A stretch of DNA of 41,175 nucleotides from Acidimicrobiales bacterium (GTDB lineage: Bacteria; Actinomycetota; Acidimicrobiia; Acidimicrobiales; JACCXE01). The stretch lies in NCBI GenBank assembly GCA_035546775.1, contig DASZWD010000037.1:1-41175 (forward strand), written 5' to 3'. Within the stretch, counting starts at the first letter, position 1. The number at the start of each line of letters is the position of its first letter. Shown one piece after another: positions 9,194 to 27,575 of this stretch. Position numbers and translations under genes: made by a program. The notes under the pieces were generated by a model. The model searched no databases. It saw only the letters and a list, made by a program, of their open reading frames with translations, and had not been told where the DNA came from.

Positions 9194-10510
9194 TCAGTCG
9201 AGCCCCAGGTCAGAGGCCAGGAGCGACCGGCGGATCTTGCCGTTGGGCGAGCGCGGAATGTCCGCGACCCGGTGGATCTCTTTCGGGTTCTTGTAGCCCG
9301 CGAGGTTGGCGCGCAGTTCGCTGACGACGAGGTCGACGGGCGCGGCACCGGCGTAGGCCGCGCACACCCGCTGGCCCCAGTCGTCGTCCTCGCGGGGGAA
9401 CACGGCCGCGTCGTCGACGCCGTCGATGGCCAGCAGCACGCGCTCGATCTCGGCGGGGTAGACGTTCACGCCACCCGACAGGATGAGGTCGTCGCGGCGG
9501 CCTTCGAGGAAGAGGTAGCCGTCGTCGCTCAAGCGGCCGAGGTCGCCGACGGTGAAGGCGTCGCCGTCCCAGGCCGCCGCCGTCTTCACCGGGTCGTTCC
9601 AGTAGGTGAAGCGGGCGTAGGCGGGCGGCGTGCACCAGATGACACCGTCCTCGGCGATGCGCAGGGTGCGGCCGGGACGGGCACGACCGACGGTGCCGGG
9701 GTGCGCCAACCAGTCGTCGGTCGAGCAGGCGGTGAACTGGCACTCGGTGGCGCCGTAGAACTCCCACACGCTGCCGGAGGGCAGCGTGGCGATGGCGCGG
9801 CGCTTGACGGCGTCGCTCGTGGGCGCGCCGGCGTGGGCGAGGAGGCGGAAGCGCTTGAACGGCGTCGGATCGTCGCCCGCCAAGTCGATGAGGCGATGGA
9901 GGTGGACGGGCGCCATGAAGCTCGACGTGGGCGCGAACTGCTCGATGGCACGCAGCTGCGTGGCGGCGTCGAACTTGCCGGGCAACACCACGGTGCCCCC
10001 GGCGAGCAGCGTGCCGCTGGCGTAGCGCAGCGGCGCCGAGTGGTGGACGTTGCCGCACACGAGGTGCACGTCGTCGGCGACGAAGCCCCACTGCGCGTTC
10101 TCTTCGCCCTGCAGCGCCCGGGCGTCGGACTCCGACAGCACGCCGCTCCACACGCCCTTGGGCACGCCGGTCGTGCCCGACGTGTAGAGCATCGGGCGCC
10201 CGAGCGGCACGTCGGCCAGGTCGACAGGAGGCCCGGCGACGAGGTCGGCGTCGGTGAGCACGCGCGCCGCGTCGGCATCGGCGAGCAGTTCGGCGCGCTC
10301 GCGTTCGGTGAGCAACGCGTTGAGGACGACGGGGATGATCCCGGCGCGCAGCGCGCCGAGCACGAAACAGAGGCGCTCGGCGGTGAGGCCGGGGTCACCG
10401 GGCACGAACGCCACGCGGTCGCCGGGGCGCACGCCGTCGCGCACCAGGGCGCCGGCGAGGCCGGCTTGGAGTCGTTCCGCGTCGGCGGAAGTGAGGACTA
10501 CCGCGTCCAC
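9194..10510 (-). CDS. AMP-forming acyl-CoA synthetase / ligase
   Basis: ANL-superfamily adenylating enzyme, 438 residues from GTG 10510. Motifs in order: MLYTSGTTGVPKGVW (P-loop-like A3), VWEFYGATECQF (A5), YLFLEGRRDDLILSGGVNVY (A7/A8 hinge) and RSPNGKIRRSLL with the C-terminal catalytic Lys. It activates a carboxylic acid as acyl-AMP and then transfers it to CoA; the substrate is unknown. The N-terminus is short for the family, beginning almost directly at VRPGDRVAF. GTG 10510 overlaps the upstream aldehyde dehydrogenase stop by 13 nt, implying translational coupling. The open frame continues upstream as a shadow of the dehydrogenase gene, which I do not count as a fusion. Aldehyde oxidation followed by CoA activation of the acid is a sensible two-step pathway. 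Confidence 0.88.
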   Translation of the reverse strand: MDAVVLTSADAERLQAGLAGALVRDGVRPGDRVAFVPGDPGLTAERLCFVLGALRAGIIPVVLNALLTERERAELLADADAARVLTDADLVAGPPVDLADVPLGRPMLYTSGTTGVPKGVWSGVLSESDARALQGEENAQWGFVADDVHLVCGNVHHSAPLRYASGTLLAGGTVVLPGKFDAATQLRAIEQFAPTSSFMAPVHLHRLIDLAGDDPTPFKRFRLLAHAGAPTSDAVKRRAIATLPSGSVWEFYGATECQFTACSTDDWLAHPGTVGRARPGRTLRIAEDGVIWCTPPAYARFTYWNDPVKTAAAWDGDAFTVGDLGRLSDDGYLFLEGRRDDLILSGGVNVYPAEIERVLLAIDGVDDAAVFPREDDDWGQRVCAAYAGAAPVDLVVSELRANLAGYKNPKEIHRVADIPRSPNGKIRRSLLASDLGLD

Positions 10511-11877
10511 TCGGTGGCGATGAGTTTCGCTTCGGTGAACGTCAGCACGCCTTCGTGGGCGCCCTCGCGGCCGATGCCCGATCCCTTCACGCCGCCGAAG
10601 GGCGTCGAGGGGTCCGACACGATGCCGCGGTTGACTCCGACCATGCCGACCTCGAGGCGCTCGGCCACGGAGAGGCAGCGGGCGAAGTCGCCACCGGCGA
10701 CGTAGCCGGCGAGGCCGACGTCGGAGTCGTTGGCGAGGGCGAGCATGCGGGCGTCGTCGTCGGGCACGGCGACGATCGGGGCGACCGGCCCGAAGATCTC
10801 CTCGCGCAGGATCGGGTTGTCGGGCGCCACCCCCGTCAGCACCGTCGGTGCGTAGAAGGTGCCGTCCAGGCGTTTGCCGCCCGTCGCTGCGATCGCGCCG
10901 GCGTCGACCGCGCTGCGCACCAACTCGTCGACTTTTTCGAACGACTTCTGGTCGATGAGCGGGCCGACCTCGGTGTCGGGGTCGATGCCGTTGCCGACCA
11001 CGAGCTTCTCGAAGCGGGCGACGAGCGCGTCGGTGAAGGCGTCGAGCACGGGTTCGGCGACGTAGAAGCGGTTGGCGGCGGTGCACGTCTGGCTGTTGTG
11101 GCGCAGCTTGGCCACCAGTGCGGCTTCGATGGCGGCGTCGACGTCGGCGTCGCCCAGCACGAGGAACGGCGCGTTGCCGCCCAGTTCCATGGCACAGCTC
11201 ACGACGCGGGGCGCCGCGAGTTCGAGCAGCGTGGCGCCGACGGGTGTGGAGCCGGTGAAGGACAGCTTGCGCACCGGGTCCTGGTCGAGAAACGCCTTGA
11301 CGATGCCGCCGGTGTTGGTCGTGGGCACGACCTGGAAGACGTCGGCGGGCAGGCCGGTGTCCTTGAAGATGTCGGCGAGGCGCACCGCGGTGATCGGCGT
11401 CAGCGACGCCGGCTTGGCGATGACGGAACAACCGGCGGCGAGCGCAGGTGCGAGCTTGCGGGTCAGCATGGCGGCAGGGAAGTTCCACGGCGTGACCGCC
11501 AGCACGACGCCGATCGGTTGGCGCAGCACGATCTTGCGCCCGGTGCCGTTGGGCAGCGAACCGACCTCGCCGTCGATGCGCACCGCCTCTTCGGAGTTCC
11601 AGCGGAAGAACTCGGCCGCGTACTTGACCTCGGCGTGGCCATCGGCGATCGGCTTGCCGTTCTCCGACGTGATCAGGCGCGCCAGGTAGTCCTCGTTGTC
11701 GAGCATCGCCTGCCAGCACGCCCGGAGGATCTCGGCGCGCTCGCGCGGCGCCACCTTGGCCCAGTCCTTTTGCGCCGCGTCGGCGCGGGCGACGATCGCC
11801 GGCACGTCGTCGACGTCGAAGGTGGCGACCTCCGTCAACTGCTCGCCGGTGGCCGGGTTGTGCACTGCGAGGGGCAT
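10498..11877 (-). CDS. NAD(P)-dependent aldehyde dehydrogenase, succinate-semialdehyde dehydrogenase-like
   Basis: A 459-residue ALDH-superfamily enzyme. The cofactor region has VLAVTPWNFPAAMLTRK and AKPASLTP; the conserved Glu is in AMELGGNAPF; the nucleophile is Cys265 in NSQTCTAANRF. EEIFGPVAP and STPFGGVKGSGIGREG complete the signature. The NSQTCTAANR and GGVKGSGIGREG versions resemble the GabD/SSADH branch, so succinate semialdehyde or a related short acyl aldehyde is the likely substrate. The gene overlaps the acyl-CoA synthetase by 13 nt. Directly upstream lies the first palindromic repeat of the DUF559 cassette, so the cassette separates this operon from the kinase operon at 13003. 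Confidence 0.9.
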   Translation of the reverse strand: MPLAVHNPATGEQLTEVATFDVDDVPAIVARADAAQKDWAKVAPRERAEILRACWQAMLDNEDYLARLITSENGKPIADGHAEVKYAAEFFRWNSEEAVRIDGEVGSLPNGTGRKIVLRQPIGVVLAVTPWNFPAAMLTRKLAPALAAGCSVIAKPASLTPITAVRLADIFKDTGLPADVFQVVPTTNTGGIVKAFLDQDPVRKLSFTGSTPVGATLLELAAPRVVSCAMELGGNAPFLVLGDADVDAAIEAALVAKLRHNSQTCTAANRFYVAEPVLDAFTDALVARFEKLVVGNGIDPDTEVGPLIDQKSFEKVDELVRSAVDAGAIAATGGKRLDGTFYAPTVLTGVAPDNPILREEIFGPVAPIVAVPDDDARMLALANDSDVGLAGYVAGGDFARCLSVAERLEVGMVGVNRGIVSDPSTPFGGVKGSGIGREGAHEGVLTFTEAKLIATEWTR

Positions 11878-11894
11878 GCCCCGAGGCTACGTCC

Positions 11895-11957
11895 GCTTCT
11901 GGTGTCGCCAGGAAAGAAAGACCCGTCTGTGGCGACACCAGAAGCGGCGGGGCGGGG
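11895..11957. repeat. Cassette 1, palindromic repeat copy A
   Basis: This 63-bp unit is repeated at 12929-12991 with three substitutions. It contains a perfect 18-bp inverted repeat (CCGCTTCTGGTGTCGCCA at 11893-11910 against 11930-11947) around a 19-nt purine-rich loop beginning GGAAAGAAAGACCC. The last base of the unit abuts the stop codon of the DUF559 gene. There is no U tract, so it does not look like an ordinary intrinsic terminator. Confidence 0.9.
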
Positions 11958-12878
11958 CTACGTCGGTAATCCGAGCGTGTCGCGGACGATGCGGAGGAAC
12001 GTGCGCGGCTCGTCGATCGGGATGCGCCACCAGATTCGGCGAACCGTCCAGCCGTAGACGACGCGCAATTCGTGATCGCGGGCTTCGTCCTTCACCTTCA
12101 CTTCGGGACGGAGGTGCACCGGTCCGTCGATCTCGAAGTTGACCTTCTTGTCGACGTACGCGTAGTCCATCTTCGCGACGTACCGGCCGTCGTCGGACCA
12201 GATGCGATGTTGCAACGTCGGCTCCGGCAGGCCGTGTTCGCGAATGAGCACGAGACCGAGCAACTCGCTGTCGGTGTCGGTGATGCCGTCGTTGACGGAA
12301 CCGGCGGCGATCGCTTCGCGCAGCCGGGTGACGCCGGCCCGTCCCTTGCGCGCGTGCTGGGCGAGACACACGATCAGCGCGTGCCAGTCGAACAGACCGA
12401 GGCGGCGGCCCTCTTCGATTGCGCTCCGGAGGTTGGTGCCTCGGAGGTAGCGGGCGAGGTCGAGGACGGTGCGCCTCGCGTCTGTCGTCGCAATGCCGTT
12501 GACTTCGACGGTCTCGCACTTGTCGAGGTCGCGGCTGGAGTGAACCGTGACGCCGGCGAGCTCAACGCGGCGGCCGCGCGGCACCGTGATCTCCACCGGA
12601 GCGTTCGCAAAACCGATTCCGTGCAGGCGGGCCGCACATTGGTGTGACGCGGCGGCGCCTTTCCCACCCGCCTTGACGGCGGCGTACACGCGGCCTTCCC
12701 ACGTCCACGGCGCTCCGGCGAGTCGGTAGACGTCGCGGTGCACCAAGATCCACCGTCCCGCGGCAACGCGCGCGTCGGCATGGTGACGCTTGCCGCCGGC
12801 GGCGTTCACGTCCTGCAACGTGATGACGGAGTGATGGTCGAGCGCGACCGCGGCGAGGTCTTCGTCCAATGTGGACAC
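11958..12878 (-). CDS. AbiEi-like winged-helix plus DUF559 (Vsr-fold nuclease-like) protein, cassette 1
   Basis: Predicted 306 residues from GTG 12878. The N-terminus resembles the AbiEi antitoxin DNA-binding region: a short helix-turn-helix, then VAAGRWILVHRDVYRLAGAP and AAASHQCAARLHG. The C-terminus is DUF559-like, related to Vsr mismatch endonucleases: KMDYAY with Asp238, then NFEIDGPVHL with Glu249 and Asp251, the acidic set expected of a PD-(D/E)XK core. GTG 12878 is preferred over GTG 12923 because AGGGG lies 6 nt upstream and because it aligns with the paralogue's N-terminus. The gene lies between two copies of a palindromic repeat and separates two unrelated operons. Known AbiEi proteins bind inverted repeats, so binding its flanks is plausible but untested. 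No AbiEii toxin gene is adjacent, so a classical type IV toxin-antitoxin pair is not supported. Confidence 0.8.
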   Translation of the reverse strand: MSTLDEDLAAVALDHHSVITLQDVNAAGGKRHHADARVAAGRWILVHRDVYRLAGAPWTWEGRVYAAVKAGGKGAAASHQCAARLHGIGFANAPVEITVPRGRRVELAGVTVHSSRDLDKCETVEVNGIATTDARRTVLDLARYLRGTNLRSAIEEGRRLGLFDWHALIVCLAQHARKGRAGVTRLREAIAAGSVNDGITDTDSELLGLVLIREHGLPEPTLQHRIWSDDGRYVAKMDYAYVDKKVNFEIDGPVHLRPEVKVKDEARDHELRVVYGWTVRRIWWRIPIDEPRTFLRIVRDTLGLPT

Positions 12879-12882
12879 GACG

Positions 12883-12911
12883 TTCCCCTTCTGTAGACAT
12901 CCGAAGGGGAA
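12883..12911 (-). promoter_or_regulatory. Hairpin that would sequester the DUF559 ribosome-binding site
   Basis: On the minus strand, TTCCCCTTC (from 12911) pairs perfectly with GAAGGGGAA (to 12883) around an 11-nt loop. The downstream arm contains the AGGGG Shine-Dalgarno of the GTG start at 12878. Folding the leader would hide the ribosome-binding site, giving low or conditional translation. This is read directly from the sequence; function is inferred. Confidence 0.55.
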
Positions 12912-12928
12912 GCGGACGTTCACATTCT

Positions 12929-12991
12929 GCTTCTGGTGTCTCCAGGAAAGAAAGACCCTTCTGTGGCGACACCAGAAGCGGTGGGGCGGGG
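12929..12991. repeat. Cassette 1, palindromic repeat copy B
   Basis: Direct copy of 11895-11957 with 60 of 63 bases identical. The arms 12929-12944 and 12964-12979 pair over 16 bp with one mismatch; the loop is GGAAAGAAAGACCC plus TTCTG. It lies 11 nt downstream of the ABC1-kinase stop and upstream of the DUF559 start. With copy A it brackets exactly one gene. Confidence 0.9.
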
Positions 12992-13002
12992 GCGGCGGAC
13001 GG

Positions 13003-16695: not shown

Positions 16696-17088
16696 ATGCC
16701 CGTGTCCACAATGAAAACCCGTGAGAAGAAGCCGGGCCCGCTGCGGCGGTTGTTCGGCACCAAGCCCGAATCGACGGAGTCGCCCGGCGAAGCGACCGCG
16801 CCGCCGATCGAAGCGCTGCGCGCCGCCGCCGCACCGGCCGAAGGCGTGACCGCACCGTCGCAGCCCGAGTCGCGGCCGCGTGCCACGAGCACCAAGGTGT
16901 CGGCGAAGCCGGCGGCGAGCGCCAAGCGACCGGCGGCGACGAAGAAGGCGGCGGCGAAGAAGGCGACACCGGCGAAGAAGACGACGGCGGCGAAGAAAGC
17001 CCCGGCCAAGAAGACGACGGCGGCGAAGAAAGCCCCGGCCAAGAAGGCGACCGCAAAGAAGGCGACCGCAAAGAAGGCGACCCGATGA
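16696..17088 (+). CDS. Histone H1-like Lys/Ala-rich DNA-binding protein
   Basis: A 130-residue protein. The first ~60 residues are mixed and proline-rich; from about 70 to the end it is almost pure Lys/Ala/Thr/Pro in PAKK and AKKAT units, like the C-terminal tails of bacterial H1-like and mycobacterial HupB proteins. The tail should be disordered, strongly basic and able to bind DNA or RNA non-specifically. No globular HU domain is present, so it is a tail-only version. The gene ends in an ATGA overlap with the small gene at 17085, suggesting the two products work together. The tail is encoded by tandem DNA repeats. A nucleoid role is inferred from composition. Confidence 0.65.
   Translation: MPVSTMKTREKKPGPLRRLFGTKPESTESPGEATAPPIEALRAAAAPAEGVTAPSQPESRPRATSTKVSAKPAASAKRPAATKKAAAKKATPAKKTTAAKKAPAKKTTAAKKAPAKKATAKKATAKKATR
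16981..17076 (+). repeat. Tandem repeats encoding the basic tail
   Basis: Two exact 33-bp units (16981-17013 and 17014-17046) are followed by two exact 15-bp units (GCGACCGCAAAGAAG at 17047-17061 and 17062-17076). All lie in frame inside the H1-like gene. Exact identity, including third codon positions, implies recent duplication and likely length variation between strains. Confidence 0.9.
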
Positions 17089-26502: not shown

Positions 26503-26555
26503 CACTTCTGTGAAGGAATTTCCGTGTCCAACACGGACGATCCTTCACAGAAGTG
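26503..26555. repeat. Cassette 2, 5' nested palindrome
   Basis: The outer stem CACTTCTGTGAAGGA (26503-26517) pairs perfectly with 26541-26555. Inside it an inner stem TCCGTGT (26521-26527) pairs with ACACGGA (26531-26537) around CCA. A related palindrome follows the gene at 27524-27572. The ABC ATPase stop is 2 nt upstream. Confidence 0.9.
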
Positions 26556-26600
26556 GAGGGCCCGGTTGCGCGTTACACCCCCGCGGCATCATCGAGTGGC

Positions 26601-27575
26601 GTGGCGAACCTCGACGATTTGGTGGCTGAACTCGCAGCGTTGACGGACAACGTGATCGCGCGGCGGAATTTGCTTGCGCTTCGTGTTACGGACGAGTGGA
26701 TCGAAGCCAAGCGAACTCGGCGCGTTTTCCAAACCTTGTTCGACGGCGTATATCTGCACGGTGCGGCGGCGCCGACGCGGCGGCAGTGGATATGGGGCGC
26801 GCTCATGGCCGCGGGGGACGGAGCGGTGATCTCCCACGGCGCCAACCTCGCGGCGCGCAGTGTGCAAGGGGCGGAACCGGGAACGATCCACATCACGATC
26901 CCCGACGACCGCGACGTCGAGCTCAAGATCGTCGGACGCGAGCTTGTCGAGTTGCCCGCGATCAAGGTGTTTCGGTCGCGTCGCGGGACGGGCCCGAAGT
27001 CCTTCGCCGACGGGCTGCCGGCCACCTGCGTCGAGCGGACACTCGTCGACTACGCCGCGATCGCGAGTCCGCTGCTCGTCGAGCGGGCGGTCGAGGACGT
27101 GCTCAACCGGGGCCTTTCGACCGAGACCCGGGTGTGGGAGGGATTGATCCGATATGGCGGCCGTGGCGTCACCGGCACGAAGCGGCTGCGTCGCGTCCTC
27201 ATGCGGCGACCGTCGGGCCGCCCCGCCAAGAGCATCCTCGAAATACTCCTGGGGCCGGTCCTCGATCGAGCGGGTCTTCCGCCCAGCGTGCGCAACCACC
27301 CCGTCACCGTCGACGGCAAGAACTACGAGATCGACCGGGCGTGGGTGCGCGAGATGGTCGCTTTGGAGGCTGACAGCAAGGCCTGGCATGGGACGGCGAC
27401 GGCGAGCGCGAACGACCGTGAGAAAGCCAAGGCACTCGAGTCGATCGGCTTCGCGGTCGTGCGAACCAACTGGGACGAGGTCGTCAACCACCCCGAGCTG
27501 CTCGTCGCCAAGCTCGAACTGGCCTTCTGTGAAGGATCCCCCGTGCTCAACACGGAATTTCCTTCACAGAAGTGA
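26601..27575 (+). CDS. AbiEi-like winged-helix plus DUF559 (Vsr-fold nuclease-like) protein, cassette 2
   Basis: A 324-residue paralogue of the 11958-12878 product. The N-terminal DNA-binding half has VIARRNLLALRVTDEWIEAK, VFQTLFDGVYLHGAAAPTRR and AAGDGAVISHGANLAARS. The C-terminal half has YEIDRAW with Asp245 and VALEADSKAWH with Glu256 and Asp258, the same D-x10-E-x-D spacing as cassette 1. GTG 26601 is chosen because NLDDLVAELAAL aligns with the paralogue's N-terminus; GTG 26553, inside the 5' palindrome, is the other option. The last 17 codons and the stop lie in the 3' palindrome, so the repeat encodes the C-terminus (CEGSPVLNTEFPSQK). No toxin partner is adjacent. DNA binding and nuclease activity are predicted from family resemblance only. 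Confidence 0.78.
   Translation: MANLDDLVAELAALTDNVIARRNLLALRVTDEWIEAKRTRRVFQTLFDGVYLHGAAAPTRRQWIWGALMAAGDGAVISHGANLAARSVQGAEPGTIHITIPDDRDVELKIVGRELVELPAIKVFRSRRGTGPKSFADGLPATCVERTLVDYAAIASPLLVERAVEDVLNRGLSTETRVWEGLIRYGGRGVTGTKRLRRVLMRRPSGRPAKSILEILLGPVLDRAGLPPSVRNHPVTVDGKNYEIDRAWVREMVALEADSKAWHGTATASANDREKAKALESIGFAVVRTNWDEVVNHPELLVAKLELAFCEGSPVLNTEFPSQK
27524..27572. repeat. Cassette 2, 3' nested palindrome (inside the coding region)
   Basis: CTTCTGTGAAGGA (27524-27536) pairs perfectly with 27560-27572, and an inner CCGTG/CACGG stem (27541-27545, 27551-27555) repeats the layout of the 5' copy. The interior matches the 5' copy better when inverted (17 of 23) than directly (14 of 23), with GGATC facing the gene in both, so the two behave like terminal inverted repeats. 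Confidence 0.88.

Follow-up and report, generated by a model that had tools for sequence, protein, structure and literature searches.

The locus described here lies in a 41,175-nt stretch of an Acidimicrobiales genome (contig DASZWD010000037.1; the whole stretch is referred to as the window) and consists of a single gene for a putative nuclease bracketed by two palindromic repeats, an arrangement designated cassette 1 (Table 1). The initial annotation had reported near-identical 63-bp direct repeats at 11895-11957 and 12929-12991, and the two copies do differ at only 3 of 63 positions (60 of 63 the same), each forming a near-perfect palindrome around a 19-nt loop; over a slightly longer span, 11892-11957 against 12926-12991, they are 94% identical across 66 nt. 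Its further observations that copy A ends at the base preceding the stop codon of the gene (11957, for the minus-strand gene at 11958-12923), and that the Aldedh, ABC1 kinase, MPAB and TetR neighbours share one strand, hold as well. The flank pair of cassette 1 scores 56, against a maximum of 27 among 4000 draws of pairs taken from different homologues, and on this basis a chance match between the repeats is excluded.

Table 1. Positions of the two palindrome-flanked cassettes and of the genes adjoining cassette 1 in the window.
Feature	Position	Strand	Remarks
Aldedh (ALDH) neighbour	10498-11877	-	
Entire inserted unit, palindrome-gene-palindrome	11878..13002	-	About 10 bp between the two flanking genes in congener G001
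Palindrome copy A, cassette 1	11893..11947	.	18-bp perfect stem, 19-nt loop; conserved repeat extends to 11957
Nuclease gene, cassette 1	11958..12923	-	Sole gene between both palindromes
Palindrome copy B, cassette 1	12929..12979	.	16-bp stem with one mismatch, loop the same as in copy A; conserved repeat extends to 12991
ABC1 kinase neighbour	from 13003	-	MPAB and TetR likewise on the minus strand
Upstream palindrome, second cassette	26503..26553	.	CACTTCTGTGAAGGA...TCCTTCACAGAAG
Homologous nuclease gene P0002, second cassette	26553..27575	+	3' terminus, with the stop codon, inside the downstream palindrome or at its edge
Downstream palindrome, second cassette	27524..27574	.	Inverted match 88%, direct match 80%

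Counted from the GTG at 12923 the cassette 1 nuclease is 321 residues long, and its true start is probably the GTG near 12878. NCBIfam offers no name for the protein, and Pfam returns weak matches to AbiEi_4 at the N terminus and to DUF559 and MTES_1575 at the C terminus, families that recur across 15 relatives (AbiEi_4 in 13, DUF559 in 12 and MTES_1575 in 14). An AlphaFold2 model based on alignment A1 has a mean pLDDT of 91; in it residues 18-209 superpose on the AbiEi antitoxin of S. agalactiae (6y8q, Z 13.4, with 183 residues aligned), and the structural matches for residues 217-320 are Vsr (1cw0, Z 10.3) and the catalytic domain of I-Bth0305I, an EDxHD homing endonuclease (3r3p, Z 12.3). 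Sequence profiles match 3hrl and 3r3p, and 6y8q weakly, and the AbiEi models of the PADLOC defence library match at E 3.8e-29. The presumed catalytic residues are widely retained among 131 homologues (E220 in 90%, D253 in 99%, E264 in 99%, H270 in 82% and D279 in 95%). As modelled, the gene product is an AbiEi-antitoxin-like DNA-binding region fused to a Vsr/EDxHD homing-endonuclease-like domain. No AbiEii toxin gene adjoins it, as the nuclease gene is alone between the palindromes and the genes beyond them are those for Aldedh and the ABC1 kinase. Searches by tblastn with protein P0001 or the close alignment A2 returned no homologues on phages, plasmids or viral contigs, and the closest relatives of the nuclease therefore appear to be chromosomal.

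The same plan recurs within the window and across the phylum. The second unit (26503-27575) is built like cassette 1 with a different palindrome, a distantly related gene and inverted copies. Among 131 homologues from this order and the wider phylum (a first set of 84, to which a phylum set was added), the upstream flank of a gene matches its own downstream flank with a score of at least 20 in 73, spanning many genera and several classes; the corresponding figures are 0.075% for cross-gene pairs and 0.15% when the positions within these loci are shifted. The matched stretches are mostly palindromes of 45-60 nt that abut the gene, sometimes doubled, and the two copies are in direct orientation in 49 of these cassettes and inverted in 24. 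About 40% of the homologues are without matched flanks, which counts against the explanation favoured below; we regard these as decayed, divergent or palindrome-free. The nuclease family itself was found in 33 of the 59 relatives searched and in 38 of 100 genomes from the phylum. Within a single genus, three species (G095, G131 and G152, with genomes of about 6 Mb each) carry 10 to 14 homologues per genome, some with matched palindromes (L242, L245, L247). In cassettes of several other genomes (L099, L088, L103, L122, L125, L036) a tandem pair of palindromes spaced by about 10-20 bp stands on each side, resembling BIME/REPIN doublets. The present genome (G000) also encodes shorter (about 300 aa), more divergent paralogues (L013, L016, L017, L019), some of which have their own, less perfect matched flanks and which possibly form a second branch of the same system.

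Comparison with one congener, G001 (about 75-80% identical, 77% complete), bears on how cassette 1 came to occupy its position. There the stop codon of the ABC1 kinase gene and the start of the ALDH gene lie about 10 bp apart, with neither the nuclease gene nor the palindrome, which bears out the earlier suggestion that the cassette entered between two gene blocks. Conversely, G001 has a nuclease relative of its own (56% identical) with its own palindrome pair and 5 solitary palindrome copies, contained in a 1.2-kb insert, and G000 has two directly adjacent genes at the corresponding place. Mobility of the unit between congeners is evident from this reciprocal pattern. The comparison covers one congener and does not formally polarise gain and loss, but it is unlikely that each genome lost an entire unit so precisely that only a tight stop-start junction was left. 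Because the congener is only about 75-80% identical, the insertion boundaries given here are approximate and target duplications are unreadable. Both empty sites, one per congener, lack the palindrome, and the recognition site of the nuclease here is a predicted one. The turnover extends to the solitary palindromes ("solos"): four sites with solos in G000 have orthologous sites without them in G001 (L004/L184, L163/L182, L159/L183, L164/L174), palindromes of families A, B, C and 2 were not found in G001 at its 77% completeness, and the two G001 families queried were not found in G000. At one further place, the position of a family B solo in G000 (L149), G001 has about 1.26 kb with one or two unrelated genes (L177:211-1474), so that this gap appears to be a site of repeated change.

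In this genome 10 further copies of the cassette 1 palindrome (family A), unaccompanied by the gene and mostly near the 3' ends of genes, lie outside the window and so escaped the initial annotation; the palindrome of the second cassette has 11 solos, and those of a 71%-identical and a 58%-identical paralogue have 3 and 4, respectively, giving 28 solos in four families. These counts, obtained by BLAST-type searching, are minimum values. They share exactly the palindrome, with sharp 49-bp boundaries and unrelated flanks. For a query set of 24 cassettes nearly all palindrome copies were in the genome of the cognate gene. In the G042 family a single gene is accompanied by about 20-40 solos, and 24 other genomes yielded nothing of its palindrome except one partial match of 39 nt (E=2e-4). 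Throughout the families examined the gene is present once and solos number from 3 to about 40, and no additional gene copies of high identity were found; the palindromes have multiplied and the gene has not.

One way to account for the solos is by analogy with solo LTRs: the whole palindrome-gene-palindrome unit would be the mobile entity, and each solo would mark a place from which direct-repeat recombination has removed the gene. The direct orientation of flank copies in 49 of 73 cassettes and the identical 49-bp boundaries of solos and flanking copies would be expected from such a process, and the initial annotation had envisaged an excision of this kind that leaves one repeat behind. The recovered empty sites, however, hold no repeat rather than one, recombination cannot excise the gene from the 24 inverted cassettes, and solos far outnumber the single gene copies from which they would have to derive; we consider this explanation unlikely. 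The one congener compared did not show the gene at the cassette 1 site with a single repeat or with none. A second possibility is that the nuclease is a free-standing homing endonuclease for which the palindrome is the empty target, break repair copying cassettes into solos. Its fold is that of EDxHD homing endonucleases, and the matching target length fits, yet neither of the two empty cassette sites contains a palindrome, solos spread without the gene, and hybrid palindromes, which are expected if cassettes home into solos, received no support from a comparison of arm mismatches. This account seems to us very unlikely.

The placement of the solos raises the question of whether the palindromes are mainly functional signals, either bidirectional terminators or operators for an AbiEi-like autorepressor, on which the nuclease does not act. 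With coding frames called by a simple codon model and not a gene finder, only 3 of the 28 solos in this genome fall inside a single coding frame; 13 sit in gaps between convergent genes, and the majority of the rest come just after a stop codon. Such positions would suit a terminator, and inverted repeats are known to be bound by AbiEi antitoxins (PMC7319586). However, solos occur at the ends of genes and not at their starts, and the run of T required of an intrinsic terminator follows neither cassette 1 palindrome on either strand. The initial annotation had already judged the repeats to exceed what a terminator needs, and this view is strengthened by the private sequence of the palindrome of each nuclease gene, the second copy downstream of the gene and the complete turnover within the genus, none of which a terminator would lead one to expect. 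A predominantly signalling role is therefore highly doubtful, and the preference of solos for gene gaps may reflect target choice or selection.

The pattern of variation within palindrome families is instructive about what is recognised. Family A keeps its asymmetric centre, GGGTCTTTCT, without change, while its mid-stem drifts and loses pairing; the outer arms are conserved in sequence within palindrome families. Compensatory changes in two solo families were in no excess over shuffles, and the RNA hairpin was rejected as the signal on these grounds, a result that likewise weighs against the reading of the palindromes as mainly functional signals. Judged by sequence conservation, a protein-binding site with inverted half-sites fits better than an RNA hairpin, and conserved half-sites around the core GGGTCTTTCT are the pattern to be expected if a protein dimer binds there. 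Three related families in this genome all retain AGGGTCTTTCT (or its complement) centrally. Proteins of about 50-70% identity are paired with palindromes that are almost unrelated to one another. Cores are shared in 8 of 31 pairs with a relative protein score of at least 0.4, a cut-off picked after inspection of the data, as against 17 of 1922 other pairs (Fisher p=1e-9), and this speaks for the mechanism proposed below. Against it, there is no overall correlation of palindrome with protein similarity (Mantel r=-0.05); the sharing of cores is confined to close proteins.

This private pairing is also relevant to the proposal that some other enzyme moves the palindromes and that the nuclease gene is a passenger or a defence gene. 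In its favour are the match to defence-library AbiEi models and the fact that mobilisation by the nuclease is itself inferred. A search of this genome for a Y1 transposase (Y1_Tnp, PF01797) gave no match, although the same search was positive in control genomes; the toxin partner that a defence reading would call for is absent from the cassette; and a common outside enzyme could hardly explain why, throughout the phylum, each palindrome family is paired with one nuclease gene. Mobilisation by another enzyme is thus extremely improbable.

The correct explanation is probably a REP-like system: the nuclease would recognise the palindrome that belongs to it, and cutting by the nuclease, together with host repair, would spread that palindrome. 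The cognate site would be the palindrome of about 50 bp, bound by a dimer of the protein, and the nuclease would both bind and cut it. Cutting followed by host repair would establish the palindrome in further intergenic gaps, for the most part immediately after a stop codon, and the whole palindrome-gene-palindrome unit would occasionally move by the same route. Each palindrome family would thereby keep a single gene copy as its palindromes multiply into solos, and divergence of the protein would give rise to a palindrome family private to the new variant. For I-Bth0305I a dimer bound to a target of nearly 60 bp has been described (PMC3943268), and the similar length of the palindromes here, like the binding of inverted repeats by AbiEi (PMC7319586), may be counted in favour of the proposed pairing of nuclease and palindrome. 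A point against the mechanism is the harm that unrestrained cutting would do at 10-40 chromosomal sites, and we infer that self-damage is avoided by some restriction of cutting.

REP-like palindromes have long been puzzling; of the enzymes associated with them, the HUH transposase RAYT has been studied best. REP/RAYT systems comprise dispersed extragenic palindromes and a single-copy cognate gene flanked by the same palindromes, with many repeats and co-diversification of enzyme and repeat (PMC8266576, PMC3733652). The likeness to these systems (TnpA-REP, REPtrons, REPINs) lies in the dispersed palindrome family and in the cognate single-copy gene flanked by its repeats, both of which are found here. 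The enzyme, on the other hand, is an AbiEi-Vsr/EDxHD nuclease (Pfam AbiEi_4/DUF559/MTES_1575) and not an HUH Y1 transposase; the palindromes are longer (about 49-60 bp), have a sequence of their own for each nuclease gene and are without a GTAG tag, none being common to the flanks of the 28 solos; and the unit is itself present or absent between congeners. Since the HUH Y1 transposase and the GTAG tag are lacking, the system is REPtron-like in its working but is not a REPtron. EDxHD homing endonucleases such as I-Bth0305I share with it the nuclease fold, the catalytic residues and a target or palindrome length of about 50-60 bp, and differ in that the system described here has an AbiEi-like DNA-binding part, no intron or intein, flanking palindromes and empty sites without the palindrome. 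From the type IV toxin-antitoxin system AbiE it shares the antitoxin fold, which makes up the N-terminal two thirds of the protein, but there is no AbiEii toxin gene in the cassette and a C-terminal nuclease domain has been added. Solo LTRs, MITEs and other non-autonomous repeats are similar as short repeats left behind or multiplied apart from a coding copy, whereas the repeat here is one full palindrome and not the terminal repeat of a longer element.

Within the open-licence PMC literature no paper links DUF559, AbiEi or Vsr-like genes to flanking palindromes, and judged against that literature the evidence points to a new kind of system, in which an unrelated enzyme follows a plan analogous to that of REPtrons. 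More broadly, and with somewhat less assurance than for the mechanism at this locus, we favour the view that these cassettes belong to a phylum-wide class of selfish or domesticated palindrome dispersal, in which an AbiEi-EDxHD nuclease recognises a private palindrome of about 50 bp and drives its spread, as an independent counterpart of REP/RAYT whose specificity is rapidly re-invented. If so, a second, unrelated enzyme would have palindromes of its own, and the REP way of life would have arisen more than once. A large set of Actinomycetota genes, at present annotated as DUF559 or 'AbiEi antitoxin', would gain a role, and dozens of natural pairs of nuclease and target site, with very different specificities, could be read straight from the genome. 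The window also contains, at 16901-17048, an array of imperfect 15-18 bp repeats that apparently encodes an Ala/Lys-rich tail, which we take to resemble those of histone-like proteins of Actinomycetota.
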